A stretch of 64,000 nt of DNA, from positions 1 through 64,000 of the forward strand of contig JAQXWS010000080.1 of the NCBI GenBank assembly GCA_029225565.1, given 5' to 3'. Under the pieces are notes generated by a model. It searched no databases. It was not told the origin of the DNA and saw only the letters and a list, made by a program, of their open reading frames with translations. The position numbers and the translations under genes are program-made. The stretch is from Eubacteriales bacterium. GTDB taxonomy: Bacteria > Bacillota > Clostridia > Oscillospirales > Acutalibacteraceae. Shown in pieces: positions 8,469 to 26,850 of this stretch (positions are counted from its first letter, which is position 1; every line of letters begins with the position of its first letter).

Positions 8469-9161
8469 ATGTTTACAAACGATATAGTAGTAAAAATTCT
8501 GGTTGGTATAGTATTTGGACTTTTCCTGGGTCTTGTGACAATCTTCTTGTCAAAGAAGCTGACACTCAACAGAACAGAGGATCCCGTCAAGGCGGCCCCC
8601 ATTGACACACCGCTATTCAAGGTGATGTCGTTTGTGATTGGCGTTGGGGTGTCTGTGGCGGTTGTGTTTACAGCCGGCGACACCGCAATGATTATCAGGA
8701 ATCTGGCATTGCTGATTCCTATAGCCTCCATAGCAGTTGTTGATTCGTTGGTACGCAAGATACCCAATTCGCTGTTGTTATCCATGATAGTCATTCAGGC
8801 GATTTACTTGGCATATTATTCTGTAAGCAATCACACTACTCAGTTGCTTATTGCAGCAGGATTTGGCTTTTTTATCGGATTTGCGGCATGCACCCTACCC
8901 GGTGTACTCAAGATTCCGGTAGGTGCCGGAGACATAAAGTACAGCGGAGTAATCGGCCTTTGCATTTTCTTTGCAGGCTATCTTCAGGCGATGGTTCTTA
9001 TGGGACTTATCGCAGTTGGATGCCTTATTGTACTCAAGGCAACCAAAAAAGGCGGATTAAAGACCATGATTCCCATGGGCCCATTAATCAGCGCAGGCAC
9101 TGTAATTACAATGTGTTATCCTATCCTTGAATCTTTTATAGGAAAGAATTTCGCATTTTAA
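8469..9161 (+). CDS. A24-type prepilin peptidase (CpaA/TadV-like)
   Basis: IPIASIAVVDSLVRKIPNSLLL...GFAACTLPGVLKIPVGAGDIKYSGVIGL (two-Asp peptidase pattern). Confidence 0.85.
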   Translation: MFTNDIVVKILVGIVFGLFLGLVTIFLSKKLTLNRTEDPVKAAPIDTPLFKVMSFVIGVGVSVAVVFTAGDTAMIIRNLALLIPIASIAVVDSLVRKIPNSLLLSMIVIQAIYLAYYSVSNHTTQLLIAAGFGFFIGFAACTLPGVLKIPVGAGDIKYSGVIGLCIFFAGYLQAMVLMGLIAVGCLIVLKATKKGGLKTMIPMGPLISAGTVITMCYPILESFIGKNFAF

Positions 9162-9203: not shown

Positions 9204-9371
9204 ATGATGAGATTTATCAAAGACGAAAACGGCCAGGGCATGCTTGAGTATGTACTTATCATCGCTCTTGTAGCTATCGTACTTATCGCTGTTCTTATTC
9301 TTGTAAGAAGCAAGGTTAATAAGGACAAGATAAACAACGACTTCAATAGTGCTACATCAGAGGCTGCTTAA
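9204..9371 (+). CDS. flp: Flp-type pilin, 55 aa (absent from supplied ORF track)
   Basis: MMRFIKDENGQGMLEYVLIIALVAIVLIAVLILVRSKVNKDKINNDFNSATSEAA*; Flp-type G-x4-EY motif then hydrophobic helix; GGGAGGAAA RBS. Confidence 0.9.
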   Translation: MMRFIKDENGQGMLEYVLIIALVAIVLIAVLILVRSKVNKDKINNDFNSATSEAA

Positions 9372-9482: not shown

Positions 9483-10079
9483 ATGTTAAAAAAGTTAAAA
9501 ACAAACAGAAAAAGCAACAAAAAAGAAGAAGGACAGTCAATGATTGAGTTTGCATTTGTCCTTCCTGTCTTTATGTTGCTTATTGTTATTATACTGGACT
9601 ATGGCTGGTTGTTTTATAACCAGATTCAGCTGGAGAATTGCGCCCGCAACGCAGCCAGAGTTGCCTGTGTCGAATACAAGGAAACCTGCCTTGACCCGTT
9701 GACCGGCGAGGCTTATGCTTCAGGCGCAAAGCAAAAATTTGATCTTTCCCGATTGGACGCATCCGAATCACAGTCGACCGACCCTCTTACCGACCAGGAA
9801 AAGGATATCCTCAAGGAAGTAAAGAGGACCCTGCCCACCAGTGTATCCGATGTTGAGGTATATATTGAGTACACCTACGACGGTGATTATCTTGACGGTA
9901 CATATTCTGCCTTTGATGTACGCAACAGAGCCAAGGGGGACGTATGCGTGCAGGTAAAAGGGATTCATACTGCCATTTCGCCTTTGGTTGGATGGGGCTC
10001 CGACGGCGGCGACTATATGCACAGATCTGTTTCCTGCAAATCCGTCTATAAGGTGGAGAAGATGGAAAAAAATAATTGA
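9483..10079 (+). CDS. tadE: TadE-like pseudopilin
   Basis: EEGQSMIEFAFVLPVFMLLIVIILDYGWLFYNQIQLENCARNAARVACVEY. Confidence 0.88.
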   Translation: MLKKLKTNRKSNKKEEGQSMIEFAFVLPVFMLLIVIILDYGWLFYNQIQLENCARNAARVACVEYKETCLDPLTGEAYASGAKQKFDLSRLDASESQSTDPLTDQEKDILKEVKRTLPTSVSDVEVYIEYTYDGDYLDGTYSAFDVRNRAKGDVCVQVKGIHTAISPLVGWGSDGGDYMHRSVSCKSVYKVEKMEKNN

Positions 10080-10151: not shown

Positions 10152-10844
10152 ATGAAAAAAGTTTATTTGATAGCAGTAGTAATCGCATTGATCGCAGGCT
10201 TCGCAACATTCTTTTTTGCCAGCGAGATTAATAAAAAGACAACCATCAAAGACGCAGACATGATAGAGATAGTTGTTCCTGTTGCCGACATAGAAAAGAA
10301 TGTCAGCATTACGGAGGAAATGTTTGCCGAGGACGCAAATCAGTTTGTAACCAAATCGGTGCTGGCAGACAGCGTATCCGCAGATGTGGCAACATCCAGC
10401 GAGCAGCTGATAGGTATGGTAACCGTTGACCCGCTTTACGCAAACGAGGCAATCAACACAAAGCGCTTGCAGAGCATTGACGGTGCCGATGTAGCCCTTT
10501 CGCTAAAGCTCCCAAAGGGCAAGGTTGCTTACTCTTTCTCAGCCGGCAGCGTTACCAGTGTTGACGGTTATATCTGCGAGGGCGACACAGTTGATGTTAT
10601 TGTGTACGAGTCCGGACCAAATGATGCCAACGGCAAGCCCACAGGAACCTCCTCCGTAAAATACAAGGGCTTGAAGATTCTCAGAGTTTCCACAGCAAAG
10701 GCTGCCCAGTCCGCAAGCGAGACCGGCGCACAAATCAACGAGTACAGCACCCTGACCGTTGAGGTTACTGAGGAGCAGGCGCTTCAGCTTTACAAGATTG
10801 AGAACGAAAATACATACAAGCTGGTTCTCAACCACAGAAACTAA
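10152..10844 (+). CDS. cpaB: CpaB/RcpC-like pilus assembly protein (SAF domain)
   Basis: N-terminal TM, VPVADIEKNVSITEEMFAE, YANEAINTKRL, position in Tad cluster. Confidence 0.8.
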   Translation: MKKVYLIAVVIALIAGFATFFFASEINKKTTIKDADMIEIVVPVADIEKNVSITEEMFAEDANQFVTKSVLADSVSADVATSSEQLIGMVTVDPLYANEAINTKRLQSIDGADVALSLKLPKGKVAYSFSAGSVTSVDGYICEGDTVDVIVYESGPNDANGKPTGTSSVKYKGLKILRVSTAKAAQSASETGAQINEYSTLTVEVTEEQALQLYKIENENTYKLVLNHRN

Positions 10845-10866: not shown

Positions 10867-12066
10867 ATGAGCGATATTAACATTGTTGTATGTTCGGAAG
10901 AAACCGAATACAAGGTAGTCACAAAAAACAAGCTGGTTTCCGACGAGTTTGACATTATCGGCTACTGCGGATTTGACAAGGACGCAAAGGTTAGAATTCA
11001 AGGTTTTGTACCCGATGTTGTAGTTTTTGCTCTTGACAGTGCAGATATTGACGAAGAATTTTTGTCTTTTATCGAAAATTTGGATTTGAGTTCCTCCGGT
11101 TGTTCAGCCGTTATCCTTACGGATTCGGTGTCTGTTGATTTGGTTAACAGCGCTGCACAGTACGGCATCAGGAGAGTTGTGGATGTTGAGGTTGCTGCAC
11201 AGGATTTTTGCAACAGCCTAAAGAAGATTGTAACCAGCGAGCGTAAGTTCAGCCAAAAGATTAATGTGGAGCGCAAGCTTAGGTCGTATATCTACGCATT
11301 CTTTAGCGGTAAGGGCGGCGTTGGCAAAACCACAATTTCTACCAACCTGGCAATCAGCCTTGCCAGCAGAGGAAAGAAAACCTTGCTTATCGACCTGGAC
11401 CTTCAGTTCGGCGATGCGGATATGGCCCTTGACCTTAATCCTACAGAGACAATCGTTGACATTGCCAGGGACAGCAGCGGCATTTCCATCGACAACCTGA
11501 CCACCTGCTGCGTTACTCATTCGTCCGGTTTGTCCGTGTTATCGTCCCCGTCATCACCGGAGATGGCCGAGTATGTTCAGTCCTCCCATGTAAAGGCGAT
11601 TTTGGATACCGCGCGTAACTATTTTGAGTACATAATTGTTGACTGCGGTTGTAACTTGACCGACCCGGTTATCACAGCGCTGGAGTCCAGCGACACAATC
11701 TTTATGGTCAACGATGTTAATATCCTTTCCCTCAAGAGAGCGAAGCTGTGCCAGAATGTTCTGACACAAATCAACCAAGAGGATAAGCTAAAAATCATTA
11801 TCAACAAGAAGGTCAAGAAAAATAATGTAAAGCTGACTGACTACGAGAATGTATTGGGACAGGATATTTATGCCACATTCTCCAGCGATCTCAAGACAAT
11901 CAACGATTCTCTCAACAGCGGTCAGCCGACTATACTGTACAAGCCCAGGTCGGTATTCTCAAAGGAGATGGAAGCCTTTACCGACAAAATTATTCTTGAG
12001 CGTGAGGGCAAGGAAGCGCTGAAGGCATCCAACACCAAAAAGAAAAAAGGCTTTATGAAGAAATAA
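10867..12066 (+). CDS. cpaE: CpaE/TadZ-like: receiver-like N-domain plus MinD/ParA ATPase
   Basis: FFSGKGGVGKTTISTNLAISLASRGKKTLLIDLDLQFGDADMALDL. Confidence 0.9.
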   Translation: MSDINIVVCSEETEYKVVTKNKLVSDEFDIIGYCGFDKDAKVRIQGFVPDVVVFALDSADIDEEFLSFIENLDLSSSGCSAVILTDSVSVDLVNSAAQYGIRRVVDVEVAAQDFCNSLKKIVTSERKFSQKINVERKLRSYIYAFFSGKGGVGKTTISTNLAISLASRGKKTLLIDLDLQFGDADMALDLNPTETIVDIARDSSGISIDNLTTCCVTHSSGLSVLSSPSSPEMAEYVQSSHVKAILDTARNYFEYIIVDCGCNLTDPVITALESSDTIFMVNDVNILSLKRAKLCQNVLTQINQEDKLKIIINKKVKKNNVKLTDYENVLGQDIYATFSSDLKTINDSLNSGQPTILYKPRSVFSKEMEAFTDKIILEREGKEALKASNTKKKKGFMKK

Positions 12067-12083
12067 AAGAGGATTGATAACCA

Positions 12084-13427
12084 ATGGGATTGTTAGATAG
12101 ATACGGTACTTCAGAAGGTATCGAGAATGTTGTTAAGTCTGATTTAGAAAAGACAGAAAAGCTGAGGCCTGCCATCGAGGACAGATATGCCGAAGTTAAG
12201 GCCAGAATACATAACACAATCATTGAGCAGCAGCTGGGCAGCGAAAATGCCGATGTCAGCGACGAGGGAATGCGCAAGCTCATTGACGAATTTGTTGAGC
12301 GCAACGAGTACGGTATTCCCAGAGTTGACAGAGCCACTGTTAAGGAAGAGCTCTTTGATGATATTATGGGTTACGGCCCTATCCAAGTGCTTATTGACAG
12401 CGACGCCTATTCTGAGGTTATGGTCAACGGATATGACCATGTGTATGTGGAAAGCAAGGGTAAGCTGACTCTGACCGATATTCAGTTTAGGGACAACGCA
12501 CACTTGATGCAGATTATCGACAGAATCGTATCCAAGGTAGGTCGTCATGTGGATGAATCCAGCCCCATGTGTGACGCCCGTTTGCTGGACGGCTCCCGTG
12601 TAAATGTTATTATTCCGCCATTGTCCTTGGTAGGTCCCATACTCACTATCCGTAAGTTCGGCAAGACCCCCATCACTGCAGAAAATCTTGTTGCTTGGAA
12701 TTCGGTTTCGCCCAGAATGCTGATGTTCCTTGAGGCTGCCGTAAAGGGCAAGCTCAATATCATCGTATCCGGTGGTACCGGCTCAGGTAAGACAACCTTG
12801 CTTAATGTACTGTCATCATATATTCCGGCAGACGAGCGTATTATCACCATCGAGGACTCCGCCGAGGTTCAGCTTCATCAGGAGCATGTAATTACTCTGG
12901 AGAGCCGACCTGCCAATATGGAGGGCAAGGGTAGAATCAGTATCCGTGACCTGGTAGTTAACGCACTTCGTATGAGACCCGACCGTATTATCGTAGGTGA
13001 GGTTCGTAGTGAGGAGACATTGGATATGCTTCAGGCTATGAACACCGGTCATGACGGCTCACTTACCACAATCCACGCCAATTCACCCAGGGACTCTGTA
13101 TCCCGTATCGAGACCATGGTTATGATGTCCGGCTCCGAGCTGCCGTCAAAGGCTATTCGCGACCAGGTTGCATCGGCTATCAACCTTATTGTTCAGCAAT
13201 CCCGTCTTAGGGACGGTAGCAGAAAGGTAACATCCATTTCCGAAATAGTAGGTATGGAGGGCGATGTTATCCGTATGCAGGAGATATTTACATACGAGAC
13301 CGAGGGCGAGCTGGACGCTAACGGAAAGTTCAAGGGCCAATTCAAGGCCACCGGCATTATCCCCAAATGTGTAGAAAAAATTCGTGAGAACGGAGTGACA
13401 GTAAGTAATGAGTGGTTCAACAATTAG
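12084..13427 (+). CDS. cpaF: CpaF/TadA secretion ATPase
   Basis: IIVSGGTGSGKTTLLNVLSSYIP, RIITIEDSAEVQL, GEVRSEETLDMLQAMNTGHDGSLTTIHANS. Confidence 0.97.
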   Translation: MGLLDRYGTSEGIENVVKSDLEKTEKLRPAIEDRYAEVKARIHNTIIEQQLGSENADVSDEGMRKLIDEFVERNEYGIPRVDRATVKEELFDDIMGYGPIQVLIDSDAYSEVMVNGYDHVYVESKGKLTLTDIQFRDNAHLMQIIDRIVSKVGRHVDESSPMCDARLLDGSRVNVIIPPLSLVGPILTIRKFGKTPITAENLVAWNSVSPRMLMFLEAAVKGKLNIIVSGGTGSGKTTLLNVLSSYIPADERIITIEDSAEVQLHQEHVITLESRPANMEGKGRISIRDLVVNALRMRPDRIIVGEVRSEETLDMLQAMNTGHDGSLTTIHANSPRDSVSRIETMVMMSGSELPSKAIRDQVASAINLIVQQSRLRDGSRKVTSISEIVGMEGDVIRMQEIFTYETEGELDANGKFKGQFKATGIIPKCVEKIRENGVTVSNEWFNN

Positions 13428-14382
13428 TATCATAGCCATCACCGCAGCCTTTACGGCTCTGGCATTCATCGTGGCCTTAATTGTAATTGCTACTGCCGGT
13501 GCCAGCAAGATAGCTGCCGAGCAGCGTATGGAAGACCTCAAAAAGCGCGAGGGCGAAGCCGATGTTGTTCTTGTAAAAAGCGAAAAGAAAAAGAATAAAA
13601 AAAGACGCGAGTCCCAAAACAGCTTTTTCATAAAGTTTGCATCCAATCTTTACAGACAGCTTCAATCCGCCGACATAAAGATGCGACCGGAAGAGTTTTT
13701 GCTAATCTGGATATTGGTTGCTGCGATTCCCGGCTTTATTGTCATTTTGATTGTGCCTAATATGACGGCATTGGCAATAGGCCTGGTTGTAGTGGGCGCC
13801 GCAGCTCCGTTTGTTTTGCTAAAGATGAAGCAGAAAAAAAGAGTAAAGGAATTTGATGTTCAGCTTAGTGACGCACTTATGATTGCCTGCAGCTCACTGC
13901 GTTCCGGACTTAGCTTTACACAGGCTATGGAGGCTATCGCTAAGGATATGGCGGACCCCATCGCCTCCGAGTTTAGGACAGTACTCAGCGAGATGAGTAT
14001 GGGTACACCTATGGACGAGGCTCTTGAGCGCCTTAACAGAAGAATTGACAGCCAGTATTTGCCGCTGATGGTATCCGCCGTGCTTATCCAAAGGGAGACA
14101 GGCGGTAACTTGTCCTCAATCCTGGAGAGCATCGCCAACGCCATAAAGGAAAAGATGAAGCTAAAGCAGGAGCTCAAGGCATCAACCGCATCGGGCAGGT
14201 CAACCGGACTTTTGGTAGGCTCCATGCCGTTTATACTGTGCGGATTGTTTTTCCTGGTTAACAGACCGTTTATTATGCCGCTGTTCACAACCTCAACGGG
14301 ACATAAGTTCCTTATTGTTGCTTGTGTGCTGGAGGGTCTGTGTGCCATTGCAGTAAAGAAAATTACCAATGTTAAGATGTAG
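13408..14382 (+). CDS. tadB: TadB-like type II secretion F-domain membrane protein
   Basis: ACSSLRSGLSFTQAMEAIAKDMADPIASEF...ETGGNLSSILESIANAIKEKMKLKQELKA; overlaps cpaF end. Confidence 0.92.
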   Translation: MSGSTISIIAITAAFTALAFIVALIVIATAGASKIAAEQRMEDLKKREGEADVVLVKSEKKKNKKRRESQNSFFIKFASNLYRQLQSADIKMRPEEFLLIWILVAAIPGFIVILIVPNMTALAIGLVVVGAAAPFVLLKMKQKKRVKEFDVQLSDALMIACSSLRSGLSFTQAMEAIAKDMADPIASEFRTVLSEMSMGTPMDEALERLNRRIDSQYLPLMVSAVLIQRETGGNLSSILESIANAIKEKMKLKQELKASTASGRSTGLLVGSMPFILCGLFFLVNRPFIMPLFTTSTGHKFLIVACVLEGLCAIAVKKITNVKM

Positions 14383-14393
14383 GAGGATATGAT

Positions 14394-15335
14394 ATGATAC
14401 CGTTTTTAGTTATTTCTTATTCCCTGCTGGTACTTGTTTTGGTTATTGTTATTTTTGGCAAAAAGGGTCAGGAGAGCGACAATAACCTCAAGAGAATGAA
14501 ATCTATCGAAAAGGATGCCGTCACCGTAGAATACGAGAATATTGAGACAACCTTTTACGAGCGTAATATTAAGCCTATAGTTAAAAAAATATCCAACCTG
14601 GACAGTAACGGTAACAAGCAAAGCAAGAGCGCCCGCAAGAGACAGGAGGACGAAAAGCTGGCACTCCAGCTGCGCAAGGCAGGTCTTCATATTTCTGTCG
14701 GTACCTTCAACTTTATAAAGACCGCTGTTATGATAGTGGGCGTTATCATTTCCGTCGGTCTTGGCGTTTTGATGATGGATGTTACCAATTACTTTTGGCT
14801 GATTATGATAGTGGGCAGTATGGTATTTGCCCTTGGCCCCACATTGTTCCTTAATTCCAGAGTTAAGTCCCACCAGGCTGCAATTCGCTCCCAGATGGCA
14901 GACACTCTGGACCTGCTCAGCGTATGTATGGAGGCAGGACTCAGCTTTGATGCAGCGTTGCTAAAGGTCAGTGAGCGTATGGAGGGTCCCCTGATTGACG
15001 AGCTTGTTACCGTATTCAAGCAAATTCAGCTGGGCAAAAACCGTAACGAAGCACTGAAGAACCTGTCGGACGCAACCGATGTTAACGAGCTTAAGACATT
15101 TGTGTCGGCTGTTATTCAGGCTAACACCCTGGGTATTCCCATCACCAATGTACTTGCCGCACAGTCGGAGCAGCTGCGTGTAACCAAGAGGGAGGAAATC
15201 AGAGAGGTTGCCGCCAAGGTACCTACAAAGATGACTATTCCCACCGTTCTTTTGATTCTTCCTGCCATTATTTGTATCATTATGGGTCCTGTTGTAATTC
15301 AGGTTAAGGAAGAGCTTAGTGGAGGATTGTTTTAA
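14394..15335 (+). CDS. tadC: TadC-like type II secretion F-domain membrane protein
   Basis: LLSVCMEAGLSFDAALLKVSERMEGPLIDELVTVFKQIQLGKNRNEALKNL. Confidence 0.92.
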   Translation: MIPFLVISYSLLVLVLVIVIFGKKGQESDNNLKRMKSIEKDAVTVEYENIETTFYERNIKPIVKKISNLDSNGNKQSKSARKRQEDEKLALQLRKAGLHISVGTFNFIKTAVMIVGVIISVGLGVLMMDVTNYFWLIMIVGSMVFALGPTLFLNSRVKSHQAAIRSQMADTLDLLSVCMEAGLSFDAALLKVSERMEGPLIDELVTVFKQIQLGKNRNEALKNLSDATDVNELKTFVSAVIQANTLGIPITNVLAAQSEQLRVTKREEIREVAAKVPTKMTIPTVLLILPAIICIIMGPVVIQVKEELSGGLF

Positions 15336-15340
15336 CCATT

Positions 15341-15682
15341 ATGATGCTAAAAGCGTACAAGGATAACCGGCTGATACTGGAAGAGGTTGAAAATGCCAAT
15401 AACTTCTTCCGCCGATTTATGGGTCTGATGTACCGAAAGTCCATGGCACGCAACCACGGCCTTTTGCTGACCCCATGCAACGAGATTCACACCTTTGGTA
15501 TGAAGTTCGATATTGACACTGTCACTATGGACAAAGGCAATGTTATATTGCTGATTGACGAAGCCGTTCCTCCCAATAAGGTACGAAAAAAGGTGAAGAA
15601 CGGCTACAAAGTTTTGGAATTGAATTCAGGCGTTGCTGCCGAGCTTGGTCTGGAGATTGGCGACACTATTGAGTTTAAATAA
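15341..15682 (+). CDS. DUF192 family protein
   Basis: FFRRFMGLMYRKSMARNHGLLLTPCNEIHTFGMKFDIDTVTMDKGNVIL...VLELNSGVAAELGLEIGD. Confidence 0.9.
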   Translation: MMLKAYKDNRLILEEVENANNFFRRFMGLMYRKSMARNHGLLLTPCNEIHTFGMKFDIDTVTMDKGNVILLIDEAVPPNKVRKKVKNGYKVLELNSGVAAELGLEIGDTIEFK

Positions 15683-15703
15683 ATAGTATTGGAGATATAC
15701 ACA

Positions 15704-16366
15704 ATGAGTAATACAGTAAACAAGGATATCGTAGATAGAAGCAAGATTTTAGGCCGCGAAAATGTGGAATTTGACAAGGTGCTCAGAGGATACGACCCAA
15801 AGCAGGTTGACGAATACATAGAGAATCTTATCAGAATCCAAAAGAATGCCAGCGCCGTCTTTGACCAGAGATTTGACGAGCTTAAGAACGCCAATTCCAT
15901 GCTTCGCTATGAGTTAGACAAGGCTACGGAAAAGCTGGACAATGCAGATGTCAAGTACAATCACCTGGAGGAGGAGCGCCAAAAGCTGTTAAAAAAGCTG
16001 CAGGAGCCGGTAAAGCAGGTAAAAGTAGTTGATAATACTGCCCTGGAGGAGCTTCAGGCAAAGTACGATAGCTTGTTTGCTAAGAATCGTCTTTTGGCCG
16101 ACGAAAACCGAAAGCTTGCCAAGGAAAATGACGAACTCAAGCGGGACGTTGCCCACCTTACAAAAAAGGTTGACAAAAACAGAAACGAAATTAAGGTACT
16201 GCGCACCGATGTTGAGTCGGGTATTTCTCCCGAGGTTGACAAGAGATACCTGGAGATTTCGCAGATTTATGAAAATGCTATTGACAAGTGCGAGGACCTT
16301 ATCTTCAGGTTGCAGACAGAGCTTTCTCTGGCACACTCAAAGGCGGAGGACATCAGCGCTCGCTAA
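15704..16366 (+). CDS. DivIVA-like coiled-coil protein
   Basis: VEFDKVLRGYDPKQVDEYIENLIRIQ DivIVA-type N-terminus then long coiled coil; ATG 15704 with GGAG RBS. Confidence 0.82.
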   Translation: MSNTVNKDIVDRSKILGRENVEFDKVLRGYDPKQVDEYIENLIRIQKNASAVFDQRFDELKNANSMLRYELDKATEKLDNADVKYNHLEEERQKLLKKLQEPVKQVKVVDNTALEELQAKYDSLFAKNRLLADENRKLAKENDELKRDVAHLTKKVDKNRNEIKVLRTDVESGISPEVDKRYLEISQIYENAIDKCEDLIFRLQTELSLAHSKAEDISAR

Positions 16367-16435
16367 CAGCATATCGGCATATGTATAGTAATAGATTACT
16401 GTTATATATTTTTAAGGTTTTGGGGAGTGATTACC

Positions 16436-19400
16436 TTGAAAAAATTTAAAAAGTGGAGGCAGGAACGAGGCGATATAGCCCTCATAGCAGTGTTTGCATC
16501 AATGGTATTTGTGCTGCTGATGGCATTGGTTATCGACGGAGGCTTGCTGTACTACCGTTCTGCCAAATTGCAAAACGCCGTTGACGCCGCTGTAGTCGGC
16601 GTGGCTCAGCACATGGATTCCTCGGAGGAATCCAAGGACTACTGGGCAGAGCATTACCTAAAGGAAAATGGCTTTGACAAAGACAAATACGGCGACAAGA
16701 TGGTCATTACCATAGAGGAAAAGGGTACCCTCGACTCAGAATATGCTGAGGAAAATGAGGATGCCTATGTTTCCGACGCCTATATCAAGCTTAATGTAAA
16801 GATTACCACCAGCGGAATGTTCGGTGGATTTTCGGGTTATAGGAATCTTTCCGGCGACGCAGGCGGCCTGAACAAAACAGGCTACGCCAAGATTAAGGCA
16901 AATTATGTAGAGATGCCCAAGGCCCTCAATTACACTATCTTCGGCGGCAACACAACCAAAGCCAATAGATACAAGGATATGACCGTGCAGCTCAACGGCC
17001 GCGCCGACGGTAACCTTACCAGTATCATCAACGCCTTTACAAATGTTGTAAACGGTATTAACAACCAGATTGTACAGCCGCTTATAGAATTTTTTGGCGG
17101 CACAGGTAATTACAACGACCTTATCTCTCCCTCGTTGTCAACTACCGTTACCAACGGCGATGTTCACTCCAATTCGGACATCAATATCGGCGTACAGGCC
17201 CTCAATGCCAGCCGTACAAAGGATGCGTTGTGGACCGGTGACAATATTGAGTGTACCTGTATCAGCCTTTGCAACGCGGCAAACAAGGACGAGGCATGCC
17301 CCGTATGCTCGGCAAATTATACCGACTGCGAGGGCGACACCGTTACCTACGACGACTATAATCAAGTTACCTACACCGCTGTGGGCGGAATCTACTTTTC
17401 CAACGCCAGCATGGCGGATTCCAGCTTTATCAGCAGAGTATTCGATATCAACAACGACCGCAACAGCCATGTGTATGTACAGAATCAGCAGTATCTCGAG
17501 CAGACTCAGTGCGTACTCAAGATTATCGACACCATGGATTTTGTCGGTATTAACAGCACCGCTGCGCTCCAGACTGCATATACCGAGGCTGCCGAAAAGT
17601 ATCTGACAGCCCAGCACCGTGTGTCCGATGAGCAAAAGGAAGCTATCAAGAATCAGGTCAACAATCTTCGATATAACGCAAACGGCACCTTCTCCCTGTT
17701 TAACCAAAAGATGATTGTCTATGATGTCACAAACAACACAGCCAACAAGGTTATGCTGGATATTGAGCAGGATACAACCATTTCTGACCTGTTGGAGGAG
17801 GTTGTCGACGCCGGTATAGACAATACCCATACCATGGAGCCCCATGTATCCGTTAATTCTGTCAATTACTACGACAGCGCCAGCTCCAAAGCCAGCTACA
17901 ACGTTGTCTTTACCAAGACAAAAAATGACACCACAGCCACCTTGGAGATTGGGGAGGCTGAGGTTACCAACCGTAATGTCAAGAATATGACCACCGTTCC
18001 GGACGAGACTGTTGCCGGCTACCGCTTTGCTGTGGCAAAAACCTTCCAGGAGCTCAGCGCCTATGTTGACATTCCCAATATGAGACCGTACTTTGTGCGC
18101 CAAATCAACCGTTCCGTAAAGAACGCTACCACAAACAAGGATAGCGGCGCCGACTCCAATACCGAGAGCGCAACCTCTATCAAAAAGGCTGTTGCCAACG
18201 CACAAAGTGATATGGAGAAGTTTATCTCCACCCAAAAGACTATGACTGCAAAAAAGGGTACTGCAGTCACCGATGCCGAAAAGGAAGCCGGCAAGTACGA
18301 CCCCGGCACAATCAATCCGTATCAGGACAACAAGTACGCATCGGATACCGCCCTTACATCAAAGGACACCTCACCCCTGTTCAGGTACAACCTTAGGCAA
18401 AAGGTTGTGGGCGGGGACAATGTGACCGACGCCAGCAATCTTGTGCTCACCGAGTACGACAACGACGACGCAGGCCACACCACCTTCCGTGGCGAAAAGC
18501 TGTATGACGACAACGGCATTCTCCGTACTCCTGAGAGCTATATCACAGAGTTCAATGCCCAGAATTCCAACAAGTACGGCAGATATGAGGTTGACAAATT
18601 CTATAACGAAACTATCAAGGGCAACTACGGTCCGGAAAAGATTGCCACAATCCGTAATTATGTCAACACACACAAGTCGTACCAGGCATTTACCAACTCC
18701 ATCAGCGAAAAGACATTTGCTGCCGCTGCCCCCAAGGAGAGCGATGTGTTCCTTACCGAGGGTATAGATATTACTACCATCAACAGCGTACCCGGCAAGA
18801 CTCTTGACACTATGCTCAAGACCGACCATTCCGGATGGCCCGGCGCCGCTATGGCAGGTATCGACAGCCAGCCTGTTACTATCAATCTGCCGGATGTCAG
18901 CGGTATCGGCAATGCGGCAGACGCACCATATACTGCGCCCACCGTTGATTTTACCAATACCATACCTATCATGGGCACCAATTATCCTATGAAGAAGATG
19001 GTATGGCCGAACACCGGCGACACAACTGCCTCCACAGCAGTCAGCACCGAGCTGGGCAAGCAGACACATCCTCAGCGTAGCGAATTTGAAGCTACATTGG
19101 AGACCTTTGATTTCCAAAAACATACTGAAAGCTCCGAAACCTATTCTGTTGGTGGAAATCATGCGTATAGCAGAATTGTTGATCCAAAAAAGACAAGTTG
19201 GGGCTCTACATATAAGATGGGCATGAGAATTGAGGAAAATGCCACTATTTACTTTGACGGATTCAAAGCCGAACAATTAAAAAAGACAGGTAACAGATGT
19301 GTCGAATTACAAAAGAACTCAAAGCTGTATGTCGGCGGTACCAGCACTTTTGAATACAATGGTGTTGCCTACAAGTACTTTAACAATGATAATAACAGTA

Positions 19401-22400
19401 GATTCACCACCGACCTTAATTGTTTTGCTTATATTGACGGTAATTTCTATCAAAAATGTGACGCTCAGAAGCCATATACTGTTGTAGTAGGCAACAATTC
19501 TACAATGTTCGTCAACGGTGATATGAAGATTGAGGGCGGCGAAAAGGGAACTCTGGAGATGAAGGCAGGCTCAACTCTCATCGTTACCGGTGAGCTGAAC
19601 ACCCGTGATATTAAGCTTACGGACACAAACGGTACTGCTACCATCATTTGCGGCAGCCTTGTTATGCCTACCAATATCGATTCGGCAAATGTTGACAACC
19701 TATATGTTATGGGTAACGCAAGCACTGCCAAGCTGACAGTACACAAGAATTGCGTAATAGGCGGCAACCTTAACGCAAACAGCACTTACTTCAATATTGC
19801 AAGCGGCTCAAAGCTGGTTATCGGCGGCACAATTTCCAACACCACAATCGGACTGCCTGATAACTTCAGCGCCTGCGCTCATTATGATTTTAATCTCAGC
19901 GGCAGCGATTTTACCGTCGGCGCAGGCCAGACCATTGCCGGCAATTCCGTAACCTTTGCCAACGCAACAGTAAACGGCGAGGTATATTCCGTGGGAGCAA
20001 TCACCGCCGACGCCAGCAAGACTGTTACAGTATCCTCCACCGGCAAGGTACAGGCGGGCAGTATCAATGCCAACCTTAACAACGACGGCAGAATCCTGAT
20101 TACCAGCTTTGGTGACGCAAACAAGAACAAGAACATTACCAACAACGGTAATATAAAGATTAATGTAAACGCAAACTGCAAGGATTTGACAAACGATTCC
20201 TTCGGCAGTATGTATATCGGCGGCAAGCTGGACGCATCGGGCAATGTTATCAACCGAGGCGTACTCAAGATTGACAACACCGCAGCTGTTGCCGGCTCCC
20301 TGACCAACGGCGCAAATTCATATCTTCAGGTTGCAAATGCAATGTCAGCCGGCAGCGCTATGAGTAACTCCGGAAAGGTTAAGTGCGGCGAGAGCATCAC
20401 TGTGGCAGGCACTCTGACAAACAGCACCTCCGACGGTGTTATTCAGGCTACCTCCATATTGGCTGAATATATGGTCAACCATGGCGAAATCAGAACAAGC
20501 GGAGCAATCAGCGTTCCCGGCAATATTACAGGTCAGTCCGGCAGCTATATTGTGGCTCAGTCCCTGAGCACCACCACTTTTTACCAAAATGGCATTACAT
20601 ATATCGAAAACGGTGACTTGACCACCCGTTCACGCCAGGACGGCGAGGGCGACCCCATCGGTAATCTCCAGATTTCCGGCCAGGTTTATGTTGTCAACGG
20701 CAATGTTACCGTAGGCGGCGATATTATCGGCTATGCCTCCGGCATACTGTTCTGCAGCGGTGCCGACGATTCTGTGGGTAATATAAGCGTTGCAGGCAAG
20801 ATTATATTCAACAACGGTGCCATCAAGGTAGAGAATGAGCTGGATGCCAGCGAGATTGAGGCTACCGGCACAAAGATGGAGTTCGGCAGTATCACCGTGT
20901 CCTCCACCTGGACCATCGACGCAGGCAGTAATGCGTATGTAGAGGACGACCTGTCCGCCTTTAAGGTGGAGAACAGCGGCACAATCTACTTAAAGCGCAA
21001 AAATATGAACATTAAGAGCCTGTACAATTACAGCACGGGTATCGTAATTTGCGACGGTAATTTGAATTTGCTGTCCTACATTGATGATGACAGACACTCC
21101 CTTATCAACGAGGGCGCAATGTATGTCAACGGCAACCTTTCTGCCGAGCATCGTATTCTGAACAACGGCGGCAAGCTGTATGTCCGTGGCGATATGAGTG
21201 GCTGTAACGCAACTATTTACGCCGGCCTTAGCGACAAGACCACCGGCAAGCGCACATTCGAGTTCTGCGGCACCGGTCAGGTATATGTTTCCGGCTGGCT
21301 CACCTCCGACGGATTGACCAAGGGCGTGTACATCACCGGCACCGGCGACGGCTCTGTTATCAGTATTTACGGCAGGGGCCACAAGACCTGCTTTAGCGGA
21401 AATATTGCTTATTTCCAAAACAATCAGACCAACGCAACGGTATATCTTGGCACCGGCTCCGGCTGGGAAAATATACAGGAAATGCGCAAGGTATCCCTGG
21501 GTGGCCAGTTTGACAACAACGGTCGGTTATTCGTTTACGGTAATCTGAGCATCGGCACAGTAGCCGGATTTGGCGGTAACTCCCAGTCGTTTACCAAGGT
21601 GTGCGGCGACTTTGACGCCGGCTTAACCGGAGTTTACAGGATAGAGCTGCATAGCGGCCACAAGGCAGTGGTATTCAACAATACCAACTGCTCCAGCATT
21701 GAGGTATATGACAACTCACAGTTCTATGGCATGAACAAAGTGGAGTTATATTTGGCAAAGACATTCAGGGTTGATACCACCGGTTTGATTTACTGCGGAC
21801 CTAACAGTCCCGCCTTTAAAGGTGTTACTACACCGACATTTACAGTCAATTGTGCCGACTCCCTGAAGGGCAGATTTTATTACCCCGGTTCAGGCGGCAA
21901 AATAAAGCTGCATCTGCCGTCCACTATTGACGGCGGCGCCTTTGTAACTGAGAGTGAAGTAATATTTGGCAACACAAGTGATGTTGCCCTCACTAACGGC
22001 GGTATGGTATGTATTGACGGTACCACCGACCTGGGCGCTCACAAGTTTGACAACCAATCGGGCGAGATGTACCTGATGGGTTATGTTGATATTAATTCGT
22101 TCTCATTTGCGTTCAATGCCGGCTGTACCAACTTTATCGGTCCCCTCAAGGTGGGCAGCGGCACAAGAGGCATTATAGAGAGTGGCCAGGCAATCGACTG
22201 GAATGGTAACAACTACTTTGACAACTCCTTTGTGGAGCAGTGTACCGACGCAGTTAACAAAAACTTGGTGGGTAAAGTCACCGGCCCTGCCGGCGGCGAA
22301 ATCATTGACGACGGAGTAGTAAAGAACAGATATGTTGCTATCCGTATCAATAGCGGCGAGACTCATTTTTCCGGCGCGCTGACGGTACAGAATACCGGCC

Positions 22401-25400
22401 TTGCAACCCGTGTTGCAAAGGGTGCGGTATTGGGCTGTAACGACCTTAATGTACGCTGTTCTATTTACAACCAGGGCGAGCTGGTTGTGTGCAACAACCT
22501 TAATTACGATTATTCCACGGGCGCATGGTCCGACAAGGGCGACAGCTACCTGGGCAACGGATATTGTATCCGCAACGGACTCAGCAACGATGATTCCGAT
22601 GTAATTATGTATGTCGGCGGCACCCAGGAGTGGAGCATCGGTGGTGCTATGGCAACCTTTGGCGACTTTTATACCAAGGCATCCCGTTTTGTTGTGCACG
22701 GCTCCATAGTACCCGACCAGTACGAGTTCAGCTATCGCACGCTGATAGGTCAGTACAACGATACCAACCACAGTACAACCCGTCACTCCGGCAAGGAGTC
22801 AACATACGCGCCGCACTTCTCCATTCGTACCGGCGACTATTCACAGACCCATTTTTACGGCTCTGTATCTACCGCCGCTACAATCTGGACCGGCAAGGAT
22901 TCCGGCTTTTCGGTGGAGACCAATTTGCAGTACGGCCAGGCGATACTTAACGGCGGCAAGTTCTACATCAAGGGCACACTCAGTTATTCCGACGACGCCT
23001 ATGGCGTAAACAATATTCAGCTGATTTGGACCACCACCGAGGTTGTCGAGGATATCAAGGGTATGATCGGCTTGGCTAACGGATTTGTAGAGAATTCCCT
23101 GAAGCCTAATTCCAACGCAGTATTCTATTGCGGCAGCTCCATCACCCTGGGCAGAGCCAAGGACAGCAGTGACGACAAGCTGGCCGGCGGCGCTGTGCAG
23201 AACTGGGGCCGTATGTATATCAATGGCGACCTGAATATCTACAACTGTACCACCGCCAACAAGATGGGTATCAATATGATAGGTATATGTACCCATGTGG
23301 GCGCAAAGACATTTATCAAGGGTAACACCTATACCGGCGGCGGATTCGCTACTATGCAGAATGCCATCTTTATGACCGGCGGCGACTGTGAGTCAAAGCG
23401 ATGCGCCCGTATCGGTTGTCCCGATACCATCAAGGGCGACGACGATATCGACTCATCCTCGTACACCTATGTTGGCCGTGACTTTATGACCAGTACAAAC
23501 GGTAATGTGGGCAAGGGTGACATCGGTATGCCCGGCAGTACATGGAACTACTTTATTGCATACAGTAATGCCAATATTTATGTAGGTAACGCATTCTTTA
23601 CCAACAGTATCACCGTGCCGAAGCGTAATACAACCTTTGCCATCGACGGCAAGGGTGACGGCAACGGCGCAACCTACAAGGGCATTTTGGCAAACATTCA
23701 GGCTGCGCTGGTAGAGATCGCCTTTCGTATCCAGGGCGCCAGCGTTGATGATGTAAAGTTTACCGTTATCGGCGACAGCGCAAAGAGTGGCTTTGAGGAG
23801 AACGATAACAAATCCCAGTTCTATCACCTTATTGTTCGCGGTAGCGCGTATGTTAAGGAGACATTCAGATTCCGTGATATGAGTGACGCTTATATCTACG
23901 GTGACTTCCTGAATTATACCACCAACACATCCCAGAATATCGAGATTGGTAAGTCCATGACATTCTCAAGCAAGGGTGACGACACCTGGGCTGCTCAGGA
24001 AACATTTATGACAGACAGGGATTACAGCAGGGATGACCCCAATTTCGACTACAATTACGAGCATGCAGGATACTTCTATGTTCAGGGCAACTTCAAGACC
24101 CGCGGACGCTTGAGCATATATGCCGGTACAACCCTCAAGGTTGGCGGCGACTGCTATGTAAGGCATAAGATTCAGCTGTCCCATGACGGCAATATGATGG
24201 TAGGCGGCGACCTGCGAGTTCCCGGCAGTGCCGATATTATCAAGCTGATTAGCGGTACCGGATTTATTGACGCCGAGGAGTATTCCAACATTATGGTACG
24301 GGGCGATATTAACGCCGGCAACTATATCGTCATGCGTGAGAACAGTATTTTGTTCTGCGGCAAAAAGGTTAAGGCGGGCACCTCCTTTGAGGCAAAGACC
24401 GCAGCAACCGTATTTGTTTGCGGCAGTCTTGAGGCTACTCTCAACACCATCAAGATTCGTGACGAGAGCCGGGTGTTCGTTGGTGGCAATATGACGGCCC
24501 TGCGTTATATAGAGTTAGGCAAGTTTGACGAGGCGTACAAGGATAGCCGCGGCGACATCAAGCGTAAGGACGACGAGGAAATAGGCGCGTCCTGTATCTG
24601 TGAGACCCGATGCTCTGCCGCTAATGCAGACTGTCCTGTATGTAGCAATAATTACGGCGATTGTGCCGTTGAGTCAAAGTGTACCTGCTCTACCGAGTGT
24701 TCCGACCAGCAGGTGGGCACCGACAGCGGATGTCCGGTTTGCGGCAGCGACTTCCAGAATTGTATGAAGGAGTCTGTAGTTGCCAAGAACGAGCTGGGCG
24801 ACGAGGTAACCGACAAGGCCAACGGCGGCAACTTCTATATCGGCAAGTCCTTGTGCTCCTATACCGGATATATCAAGGAGTACGGATTCTCACGGGTATG
24901 CGTGGGCAAGTACACATTTGCCCTCAACTATATCACATTGCGCAGCAATGCCGATATGTGGGTATTGCCCGAGGCTTTCAATAATAACACATACAAGCAT
25001 GTTGCATATGTCAGCGAAAGTGATGGCTCAATTATGGGCAATATTATCGACAAGATAAAGGAATTTGCCTATAATGTAAAGGATGCTCTGTCACTCAAGA
25101 ACGGTTCTGTTTACTCACTGGGCGAGCTGACTCTCAACAAGAACTCGTCCTTGCTGGGTACTTGGGACTGCTTCTCCTATGACCAGACATTGCTGTCACA
25201 TGATTCGTTGATTTACTTTGGTCATGACTTCAGCTGCAATGCTGCCAGCCTGCAGATTGACCTTAGCAGTCAGACTCCGTTGGTAGGCTTTGGCTCTCAG
25301 GGCGCAACATACACCACCCTGACCTGTCCTAACAAGAATACCAGGAAGCACGGCAAGACATACACAATGTACTGCAGTAATTATGACGGCAGCAAGACAT

Positions 25401-26029
25401 ACAAGTGCGACAGATGCGGCACGGCAATTCCTACTGCCAAGATAAAGCATAATGTTACCTGTCCGGTTACTATTTATGCTAACCACGATGTCAATATCTT
25501 TACCACAGTTGATATGAAGCTGACATACATTGTGGCGTCACAGGGCGATGTAAATATTTATGATGTTTACTCCAACTCTGACAATATCGGCAGTAACCTC
25601 AAGCAGCTGCCTAATGCAGTGGCGTCATTTGGCGGAGACATAAATTACTTTGCTATGTACGGCAAGATTTGTGCATTGTTCTATGCTCCGGCAGGCAATA
25701 TTGACCTGGACGGATATTATCAGGAGATTTGGGGCAGCTGTATCGGTGATACGGTAACCGACAACACCTATTACCTCAATATGCACCGCTTCTCCAACTG
25801 GAAGACCATGGACCTGCAGATTGCCGAGACCGGCTCCGTATATCTCATTTCCGAAAAGGATTGGCTGGCTGCAGAACAGAACATTGACGACGATTATCTG
25901 TACACCTATAACTCTAAAGATGAGTTGACCGGTGGCGCAAGCCTGTTCTTCCCGGCTGAATTCTTGGAGCAGGGCGGCGGATTGACAGGTAACGAGTCCA
26001 ATGCGGTAAATTCTGCCCTGGGCGGCTAA
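16436..26029 (+). CDS. Giant TadG-like protein with bactofilin-like / beta-solenoid repeat region (about 3.2 kaa)
   Basis: N-term RGDIALIAVFASMVFVLLMALVIDGGLLYYRSAKLQNAVDAAVVG (TadG-type); many [hydrophobic]-x-V-x-G-[DNK] units (MFVNGDMKI, CVIGGNLNA, MYIGGKLDA, MYVNGNLSA, MYINGDLNI, MMVGGDLRV, IMVRGDINA, VFVGGNMTA). TTG 16436 preferred over GTG 16427 because the latter overlaps GGGGAG RBS. Confidence 0.85.
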   Translation: MKKFKKWRQERGDIALIAVFASMVFVLLMALVIDGGLLYYRSAKLQNAVDAAVVGVAQHMDSSEESKDYWAEHYLKENGFDKDKYGDKMVITIEEKGTLDSEYAEENEDAYVSDAYIKLNVKITTSGMFGGFSGYRNLSGDAGGLNKTGYAKIKANYVEMPKALNYTIFGGNTTKANRYKDMTVQLNGRADGNLTSIINAFTNVVNGINNQIVQPLIEFFGGTGNYNDLISPSLSTTVTNGDVHSNSDINIGVQALNASRTKDALWTGDNIECTCISLCNAANKDEACPVCSANYTDCEGDTVTYDDYNQVTYTAVGGIYFSNASMADSSFISRVFDINNDRNSHVYVQNQQYLEQTQCVLKIIDTMDFVGINSTAALQTAYTEAAEKYLTAQHRVSDEQKEAIKNQVNNLRYNANGTFSLFNQKMIVYDVTNNTANKVMLDIEQDTTISDLLEEVVDAGIDNTHTMEPHVSVNSVNYYDSASSKASYNVVFTKTKNDTTATLEIGEAEVTNRNVKNMTTVPDETVAGYRFAVAKTFQELSAYVDIPNMRPYFVRQINRSVKNATTNKDSGADSNTESATSIKKAVANAQSDMEKFISTQKTMTAKKGTAVTDAEKEAGKYDPGTINPYQDNKYASDTALTSKDTSPLFRYNLRQKVVGGDNVTDASNLVLTEYDNDDAGHTTFRGEKLYDDNGILRTPESYITEFNAQNSNKYGRYEVDKFYNETIKGNYGPEKIATIRNYVNTHKSYQAFTNSISEKTFAAAAPKESDVFLTEGIDITTINSVPGKTLDTMLKTDHSGWPGAAMAGIDSQPVTINLPDVSGIGNAADAPYTAPTVDFTNTIPIMGTNYPMKKMVWPNTGDTTASTAVSTELGKQTHPQRSEFEATLETFDFQKHTESSETYSVGGNHAYSRIVDPKKTSWGSTYKMGMRIEENATIYFDGFKAEQLKKTGNRCVELQKNSKLYVGGTSTFEYNGVAYKYFNNDNNSRFTTDLNCFAYIDGNFYQKCDAQKPYTVVVGNNSTMFVNGDMKIEGGEKGTLEMKAGSTLIVTGELNTRDIKLTDTNGTATIICGSLVMPTNIDSANVDNLYVMGNASTAKLTVHKNCVIGGNLNANSTYFNIASGSKLVIGGTISNTTIGLPDNFSACAHYDFNLSGSDFTVGAGQTIAGNSVTFANATVNGEVYSVGAITADASKTVTVSSTGKVQAGSINANLNNDGRILITSFGDANKNKNITNNGNIKINVNANCKDLTNDSFGSMYIGGKLDASGNVINRGVLKIDNTAAVAGSLTNGANSYLQVANAMSAGSAMSNSGKVKCGESITVAGTLTNSTSDGVIQATSILAEYMVNHGEIRTSGAISVPGNITGQSGSYIVAQSLSTTTFYQNGITYIENGDLTTRSRQDGEGDPIGNLQISGQVYVVNGNVTVGGDIIGYASGILFCSGADDSVGNISVAGKIIFNNGAIKVENELDASEIEATGTKMEFGSITVSSTWTIDAGSNAYVEDDLSAFKVENSGTIYLKRKNMNIKSLYNYSTGIVICDGNLNLLSYIDDDRHSLINEGAMYVNGNLSAEHRILNNGGKLYVRGDMSGCNATIYAGLSDKTTGKRTFEFCGTGQVYVSGWLTSDGLTKGVYITGTGDGSVISIYGRGHKTCFSGNIAYFQNNQTNATVYLGTGSGWENIQEMRKVSLGGQFDNNGRLFVYGNLSIGTVAGFGGNSQSFTKVCGDFDAGLTGVYRIELHSGHKAVVFNNTNCSSIEVYDNSQFYGMNKVELYLAKTFRVDTTGLIYCGPNSPAFKGVTTPTFTVNCADSLKGRFYYPGSGGKIKLHLPSTIDGGAFVTESEVIFGNTSDVALTNGGMVCIDGTTDLGAHKFDNQSGEMYLMGYVDINSFSFAFNAGCTNFIGPLKVGSGTRGIIESGQAIDWNGNNYFDNSFVEQCTDAVNKNLVGKVTGPAGGEIIDDGVVKNRYVAIRINSGETHFSGALTVQNTGLATRVAKGAVLGCNDLNVRCSIYNQGELVVCNNLNYDYSTGAWSDKGDSYLGNGYCIRNGLSNDDSDVIMYVGGTQEWSIGGAMATFGDFYTKASRFVVHGSIVPDQYEFSYRTLIGQYNDTNHSTTRHSGKESTYAPHFSIRTGDYSQTHFYGSVSTAATIWTGKDSGFSVETNLQYGQAILNGGKFYIKGTLSYSDDAYGVNNIQLIWTTTEVVEDIKGMIGLANGFVENSLKPNSNAVFYCGSSITLGRAKDSSDDKLAGGAVQNWGRMYINGDLNIYNCTTANKMGINMIGICTHVGAKTFIKGNTYTGGGFATMQNAIFMTGGDCESKRCARIGCPDTIKGDDDIDSSSYTYVGRDFMTSTNGNVGKGDIGMPGSTWNYFIAYSNANIYVGNAFFTNSITVPKRNTTFAIDGKGDGNGATYKGILANIQAALVEIAFRIQGASVDDVKFTVIGDSAKSGFEENDNKSQFYHLIVRGSAYVKETFRFRDMSDAYIYGDFLNYTTNTSQNIEIGKSMTFSSKGDDTWAAQETFMTDRDYSRDDPNFDYNYEHAGYFYVQGNFKTRGRLSIYAGTTLKVGGDCYVRHKIQLSHDGNMMVGGDLRVPGSADIIKLISGTGFIDAEEYSNIMVRGDINAGNYIVMRENSILFCGKKVKAGTSFEAKTAATVFVCGSLEATLNTIKIRDESRVFVGGNMTALRYIELGKFDEAYKDSRGDIKRKDDEEIGASCICETRCSAANADCPVCSNNYGDCAVESKCTCSTECSDQQVGTDSGCPVCGSDFQNCMKESVVAKNELGDEVTDKANGGNFYIGKSLCSYTGYIKEYGFSRVCVGKYTFALNYITLRSNADMWVLPEAFNNNTYKHVAYVSESDGSIMGNIIDKIKEFAYNVKDALSLKNGSVYSLGELTLNKNSSLLGTWDCFSYDQTLLSHDSLIYFGHDFSCNAASLQIDLSSQTPLVGFGSQGATYTTLTCPNKNTRKHGKTYTMYCSNYDGSKTYKCDRCGTAIPTAKIKHNVTCPVTIYANHDVNIFTTVDMKLTYIVASQGDVNIYDVYSNSDNIGSNLKQLPNAVASFGGDINYFAMYGKICALFYAPAGNIDLDGYYQEIWGSCIGDTVTDNTYYLNMHRFSNWKTMDLQIAETGSVYLISEKDWLAAEQNIDDDYLYTYNSKDELTGGASLFFPAEFLEQGGGLTGNESNAVNSALGG

Positions 26030-26040
26030 CACAAAGCAAT

Positions 26041-26070
26041 AAAAACGGTAGCGTTTTGCTACCGTTTTGT
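26041..26070 (+). terminator. Terminator of the Tad locus
   Basis: aaaaacggtagc gttt tgctaccgttttgtt. Confidence 0.85.
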
Positions 26071-26088
26071 TGTATGATATTAGGTGAT

Positions 26089-26850
26089 ATGATGAAAAAG
26101 AATATTAGGCTTATTTTGGCTGTTGTTATGACGGCTTTGGTGACAGCGTCGGTTGCGCTGTCGTGTCTGTACAGTACGGGCATGTTTTTGTCGGGCAACG
26201 GCAGTCAGTACAATCCCTCCCAAACGCAACAGCAGGACGGCGCTCTTGTTGACCAGAGTATTGTTTTTGTGGGCTCGGATTTGGTGACCGGCAGCAAGGC
26301 GTCCGGGGATTCCTTTGTGGAATACCTGAGGCAGAGCCGGGGCATAAATGCGGTGGTGTACGGCAAGGACGGCGCCTCCCTTGTTGAGCGCGGAGCCAAT
26401 TCCATACCTGCTATGATTAAGACAATTCCCACCGAGAATGCGAATCCCCGTATGATATTGTGCGAGGTGCCGTATATCGACGGTACGGGATTCAGCCGAA
26501 TCGGCCAAATTACCGACGGATATTTTAACGACCAATATGATACAAAGAGCGTTATCGGCGCCATGGAATTTGTTATCAGTTATTCCCAGGACACATGGGG
26601 CTGTCCGGTAGTGTTTTATACCTGCCAGCCCAATGATAACGCCCATTATGCCAAGATTGTTGACGCTGTGCTAATGGTTGCCGATAAGTGGAATATTGAG
26701 GTTATTGATTTTTACCACGACGAGGGCATGGTGTTGGACGACCGACAGCAGGCTTTGTATATGGCTACCGATTCCTGTCCCACAAAAGCCGGTTACAAAG
26801 AGCTGTATGCCCCCAGATTTGAGGAATTTTTGTTGAAAAAAATATATTGA
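26089..26850 (+). CDS. Secreted/anchored SGNH-GDSL hydrolase-like protein
   Basis: N-terminal signal/TM; VDQSIVFVGSDLVTG...VVFYTCQPNDNAHYAKIVDAVLMVADKWNIEVIDFYHDEGM. Confidence 0.6.
   Translation: MMKKNIRLILAVVMTALVTASVALSCLYSTGMFLSGNGSQYNPSQTQQQDGALVDQSIVFVGSDLVTGSKASGDSFVEYLRQSRGINAVVYGKDGASLVERGANSIPAMIKTIPTENANPRMILCEVPYIDGTGFSRIGQITDGYFNDQYDTKSVIGAMEFVISYSQDTWGCPVVFYTCQPNDNAHYAKIVDAVLMVADKWNIEVIDFYHDEGMVLDDRQQALYMATDSCPTKAGYKELYAPRFEEFLLKKIY

Follow-up and report, generated by a model that had tools for sequence, protein, structure and literature searches.

TadG has been described as the backbone of the tip complex of Tad pili, with a C-terminal domain that is modular (PMC12075869), and CpaL/TadG was predicted to be a vWA protein of the tip and proposed to act there as a mechanosensor (PMC12607857). 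CpaL of Caulobacter, KilN of Myxococcus and TadG of Aggregatibacter all occupy the TadG position and combine a pilin-like N-terminus with a C-terminal module (PMC12607857, PMC12075869). Modular pilins display adhesive modules, and the most extreme multi-domain case named in a survey of such pilins was a protein of 860 residues (PMC8179133).

We analyzed a stretch of 64,000 nt (the window) from an assembly of the Eubacterium coprostanoligenes group (1.76 Mb in 85 contigs), which harbors a TadG-type gene of exceptional length. The encoded protein, here called the giant, resembles CpaL, KilN and Aggregatibacter TadG in position and general architecture. However, these proteins are much smaller and carry vWA or other modules, while the module of the giant is a predicted solenoid and no vWA domain was detected in it by Pfam at E ≤ 1. 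A bulky module is also grafted on the pilin in PilB and PilC of Streptococcus sanguinis and in ComZ, and the module of ComZ is a beta-solenoid like that of the giant, but none of these proteins belongs to a Tad pilus (PMC8179133). No description of a giant solenoid TadG and no paper naming both E. coprostanoligenes and Tad pili was found in the literature searched. E. coprostanoligenes is a cholesterol-reducing gut bacterium.

The giant gene, its operon and its relatives in the genus

The giant gene is located on the plus strand at 16436..26029 as a single intact ORF with its stop at 26029. Translation from the TTG at 16436 results in 3,197 aa, in agreement with the first-pass annotation, which had described one very large TadG-like protein of about 3,200 aa. 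GTG at 16427 is an alternative in-frame start. The TTG is the likelier start, because a Shine-Dalgarno-like GGGGAG (16422-16427) is present 8 nt upstream of it.

The placement of the gene at the end of a Tad/Flp pilus operon was also confirmed, since a complete set of Tad/Flp genes is found upstream on the same strand. This set comprises the TadV prepilin peptidase (Peptidase_A24, 8469..9161), the Flp major pilin (55 aa, 9204..9371; assigned by sequence with a GQGMLEY site and conserved in relatives), the TadE minor pilin (GQSMIEF site, 9483..10079), CpaB/RcpC (10152..10844), a TadZ-like MinD/ParA ATPase (10867..12066), the CpaF/TadA ATPase (12084..13427) and the platform proteins TadB (13408..14382) and TadC (14394..15335). 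An operon-conserved DUF192 protein (15341..15682) and a conserved coiled-coil protein with a DivIVA domain (15689..16366) follow directly upstream of the giant, which is the last core gene. The DivIVA-domain neighbor hints that the Tad machine is positioned at the pole or septum. A scan of the operon genes detected no secretin, in line with what a monoderm should show, and the monoderm host assumed in the annotation was supported. The plus-strand gene at 26056..26850, 3' of the giant, codes for a secreted-looking protein of 264 aa without a Pfam match. An orthologue with about 36-38% identity at the same place was confined to E. coprostanoligenes and a single close relative (L032, L123).

At least 17 complete relatives with a length of 2,318-3,671 aa were found. 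In E. coprostanoligenes ATCC 51222 (L048), a cultured isolate, the giant has 3,658 aa, and the other relatives include many MAGs, several of them from gut or rumen. A search with an N-terminal model identified the giant in 24 of the 61 genomes of the genus. These 24 genomes were also the ones with TadC; one additional weak TadC match elsewhere was taken as unrelated. Wherever the contig of a relative in the genus shows the genes, the Tad gene order was constant with the giant in last position. The operon as a whole was patchy within the genus, with TadC and TadG present or absent together. A divergent Tad operon of the same genus (L120) has a TadC gene that is split into two ORFs and codes for a giant TadG (11595-19502) with a BspA-type LRR (PF13306, 1.4e-17). 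This type of LRR is a module known from adhesins.

The size of the gene alone could point to an assembly fusion or a decayed reading frame, and the frame of one relative (L063, 5160-7481) indeed stops after 774 aa. We nevertheless regard such an artefact as extremely improbable. The 17 complete long relatives stem from independent assemblies, that of an isolate among them, and an omega of about 0.2 argues against decay. Omega was about 0.07-0.23 across all parts of the giant, with dS near saturation; from this comparison the protein appears to be under purifying selection in all its parts and is therefore not an assembly fusion. A pseudogene reading was rejected on the same grounds.

Domain layout and predicted beta-solenoid

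The giant starts with a charged leader ending at a conserved G12, followed by a hydrophobic helix and a first alpha/beta domain (aa 1-160, 16436..16915; this and all following features are on the plus strand). The Pfam Tad motif PF13400 matched aa 14-58 with an E value of 2.5e-5 and 24.9 bits (curated cut-off 22.3). It was the only Pfam match of the giant above cut-off, the match to TadE (PF07811) being weak, and it was also found in all nine relatives scanned with Pfam. The classic TadG-type start quoted in the annotation is thus present, and the view of a membrane-anchored TadG-type protein was supported by the Tad motif together with the long hydrophobic N-terminal helix. The leader shows class III features (charged residues, G at −1, hydrophobic helix). 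The G preceding the helix was conserved, and E at +5 was present in none of the 29 proteins compared. Tip pseudopilins such as GspK likewise have no E at +5.

A Cys-rich module CxCx4Cx8CPVCx6C (aa 273-298, 17252..17329) and a second alpha/beta domain, which is kept in relatives and was modeled with moderate confidence (aa 345-540, 17468..18055), are followed by a probable flexible linker of mostly low model confidence (aa 770-905, 18743..19150). The beta-solenoid region, predicted from repeats, AlphaFold and fold search, covers aa 918-2700 (19187..24535). Two more Cys-rich CPVC modules form a low-confidence insertion (aa 2720-2776, 24593..24763). The last solenoid coils and the motif ALFYAPxGNxDLDG (aa 2780-3150, 24773..25885) represent the most conserved part. 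Mean pairwise identity was 43% for aa 1-600, 22% for aa 800-1550, 35% for aa 1551-2700 and 50% for aa 2780-3150. The CPVC modules had no Pfam match; full modules were also seen in L047 and L048 and were not found in most other relatives. Pfam and NCBIfam recognized no ligand-binding domain in the window protein, and the NCBIfam scan gave no relevant match.

The strict repeat unit [ILMVF]x[VI]xG[DNKS][ILMVF] occurs 15 times in the giant, exclusively within aa 1024-2686. For aa 910-2700, only 0.52 copies were expected, and the maximum in 1,000 shuffles was 4. A looser form was present in 24 copies in this region versus 3.8 expected, and the autocorrelation of hydrophobic and glycine positions peaked at lags of 6 and 20. 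The 17 complete relatives contain 7-20 strict units each (0.4-0.9 expected). The annotation had reported dozens of such units; motif and location were borne out, while the recognizable number was only about two dozen.

AlphaFold was run for aa 1-1195 (25 rows) and for aa 2000-3197 (18-row alignment). The N-terminal model was weak overall (mean pLDDT 55), with a long helix at aa 2-58, alpha/beta segments up to about aa 540, low confidence for aa 770-905, and short strands from about aa 918. The C-terminal model had a mean pLDDT of 67.9, with 80-93 in the best stretches. It consists mostly of strands of 3-4 residues, and the most confident stretches show these arranged in coils of about 20 residues. 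A solenoid had been proposed for about aa 950-2700, and coils were seen in the modeled parts, aa 918-1130 and 2000-2700; for aa 1196-1999, which holds 7 of the 15 strict repeats, we infer it from the same repeat. Repeat statistics and models together support an extended beta-solenoid. Fold searches with the C-terminal model retrieved mainly beta-helix adhesins and autotransporter passengers, with EtpA as the best match (E 4.2e-3). The matches to the PDB were marginal, and the search supports the beta-helix class rather than a specific relative. The N-terminal model of the giant yielded nothing significant, and a sequence search of solved structures with the giant gave no match. We estimate a length of up to about 100 coils, corresponding to about 50 nm for a rise of 0.48 nm per coil. 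At the DNA level only short and weak repeats were detected in the gene, so that the coils look old and diverged, and a recent DNA-level repeat expansion was rejected.

Bactofilins also have repeats in the style of a beta-helix, as the giant does, but they are cytosolic polymers of about 100-200 aa. The long hydrophobic N-terminal helix and the Tad motif of the giant do not fit a cytosolic type. At E ≤ 1, the bactofilin profile PF04519 did not match the window protein and, among nine relatives, it matched one below cut-off (E 0.0089); a match in L121 (0.0069) was also below cut-off. The term bactofilin-like, understood as kinship, was therefore not supported and membership was rejected: by motif and operon the giant is a TadG-type protein.

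Short homologs and probable expansion of a small solenoid

Homologous TadG proteins in other genera of the order have 320-400 aa. The N-terminal profile, applied to 348 genomes of the order, matched nine genomes outside the genus, all with ORFs of 209-411 aa. Homologs are thus consistently short in other genera and not so inside the genus. Among 248 genomes of the order, a profile built from the conserved C-terminal part matched a single one outside the genus. The matched protein (L125) has 364 aa with Tad and DUF7305 (6e-8) and stands behind CpaF-TadB-TadC-DUF192 and two coiled-coil genes. Alignment of the giant with this protein by hhalign gave E 1.3e-12 for the N-terminus and E 4.3e-7 over 51 columns for the C-terminal motif; with L157, the C-terminal motif gave E 6.5e-4 at low probability.

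Four of the seven short TadGs examined end in DUF7305 (PF23981), with L125, L155 and L157 above the Pfam cut-off and L156 as a weak match; L159-L161 had no match. A further short homolog, L147, was also above cut-off. The window protein itself was not matched by the DUF7305 profile at E ≤ 1. L155 shows the order TadC-DUF192-coiled coil-TadG, as in the operon slot of the giant, so that two short homologs (L125 and L155) share the DUF192/coiled-coil context and have the same upstream genes as the giant. For L157 and L159-L161, TadG precedes CpaB and is not at the operon end.

The short TadG-DUF7305 proteins with both PF13400 and PF23981 (L125, L155, L157 and L147), from the same order or class, share the Tad helix and a YAPxG solenoid-type end with the giant, and the motif ALFYAPxGNxDLDG is common to the giant and these homologs. 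They differ in size, with 360-400 aa in total and a DUF7305 of about 110 aa compared to roughly 2,000 aa for the solenoid of the giant, and the large N-domain and linker of the giant have no counterpart in them. Since the giant keeps the N-terminus and the C-terminal motif of the short homologs, it is best read as an ordinary short TadG-DUF7305 protein that was probably expanded about tenfold in one genus; this reading is based on homology and not on a dated tree. A short DUF7305-type solenoid domain (about 110-190 aa) would have grown to a rod of roughly 2,000-2,200 aa. The annotation had assumed a fusion of a Tad minor subunit to a solenoid. This is probably not the case, because a small solenoid-type DUF7305 is already present at the end of several short homologs, and expansion of this pre-existing part would be simpler than a joining of unrelated parts. 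With one genus carrying a Tad minor subunit of about ten times the size of its short counterparts in other genera of the order, the evolution of modular pilus tips can be traced.

Other proteins with a Tad motif in 392 genomes of the class mostly had about 300-430 or 670-1,490 aa, besides shorter or cut frames. The long TadGs of the DUF5702 type from Clostridia (about 670-1,490 aa) have a Tad N-terminus and a Tad operon like the giant. Their C-terminal region, however, is unrelated and contains no solenoid repeats, and kinship with them was rejected.

Adhesive rod, wall-spanning stalk or free adhesin

By analogy to published Tad tip complexes and modular pilins, the giant would most likely function as a modular minor pilin and present a rod-shaped adhesin. 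We consider it rather probable that the giant is a TadG with a DUF7305-type solenoid, expanded in this genus and presented as a rod at the pilus tip or at the cell surface. Beyond the observed gene, operon, repeats, predicted solenoid, size difference to the short homologs, co-occurrence with the Tad system and purifying selection, we infer the following route. Acting as TadG in a pilus of the Tad (type IVc) kind, the giant would insert its N-terminal helix and pilin-like domain into the membrane and join TadE, and it may be cleaved behind G12 by the prepilin peptidase. Its complex with TadE would prime Flp polymerization and end up at the pilus tip; an uncut TadG would stay anchored at the cell. 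Flexible linker and rigid solenoid (tens of nm) would act as a spacer between the wall and both the variable adhesive surfaces and the conserved distal end. A conserved G at −1 without E at +5 supports the rod and tip reading. The fast-evolving middle of the solenoid between conserved ends and the BspA-type LRR of the divergent relative L120 support adhesion. The weak N-terminal model, the marginal PDB matches, the lack of a recognized ligand-binding domain in the window protein, and the TadG position before CpaB in L157 and L159-L161, the latter three with no DUF7305 match, speak against this overall reading. Cryo-electron tomography should reveal a tip this large, so that the location of TadG at the tip in monoderms could be tested directly.

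The main rival to a tip adhesin is a TadG that stays anchored in the membrane outside the filament. In this case the solenoid would span the wall as a stalk or collar, leading the pilus across the peptidoglycan and standing in for the outer-membrane parts that a monoderm lacks. The missing E at +5, the absence of a secretin from the operon genes scanned, the DivIVA-domain protein directly upstream and a review in which TadG is counted among the membrane components of Tad machines in monoderms (PMC6916266) are in favor of such a stalk. However, 3,200 aa are unnecessary for wall passage, since a TadG of 300-400 aa suffices in other genera of the order and class, and the rapid divergence in the middle is more in keeping with a surface that faces a ligand than with a conduit. 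We therefore judge the stalk rather unlikely. A more far-reaching version of the rod reading is unlikely as well and slightly less probable than the stalk: in this new kind of pilus, the organelle that does the work would be one genus-specific solenoid rod of tens of nm, deployed by a short Flp filament or base. Such a rod would serve as a harpoon-like or wall-spanning adhesin, and its hypervariable surface would have diversified from species to species.

Five stand-alone giants of other Clostridia (L138-L142; 2,616-3,129 aa) have DUF7305 matches and signal-peptide-like starts, with no Tad operon nearby. Kinship with them was rejected, as none of the five examined had a Tad N-terminus or operon. 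Such secreted-looking proteins would fit the idea that the giant works at the surface on its own, as an adhesin or S-layer-like spike with a borrowed TadG-type anchor and a function independent of the pilus. This is quite unlikely, and slightly less probable even than the harpoon-like organelle, since their N-termini and neighborhoods differ from those of the giant, which shares all its 24 genomes with TadC in a constant operon order.
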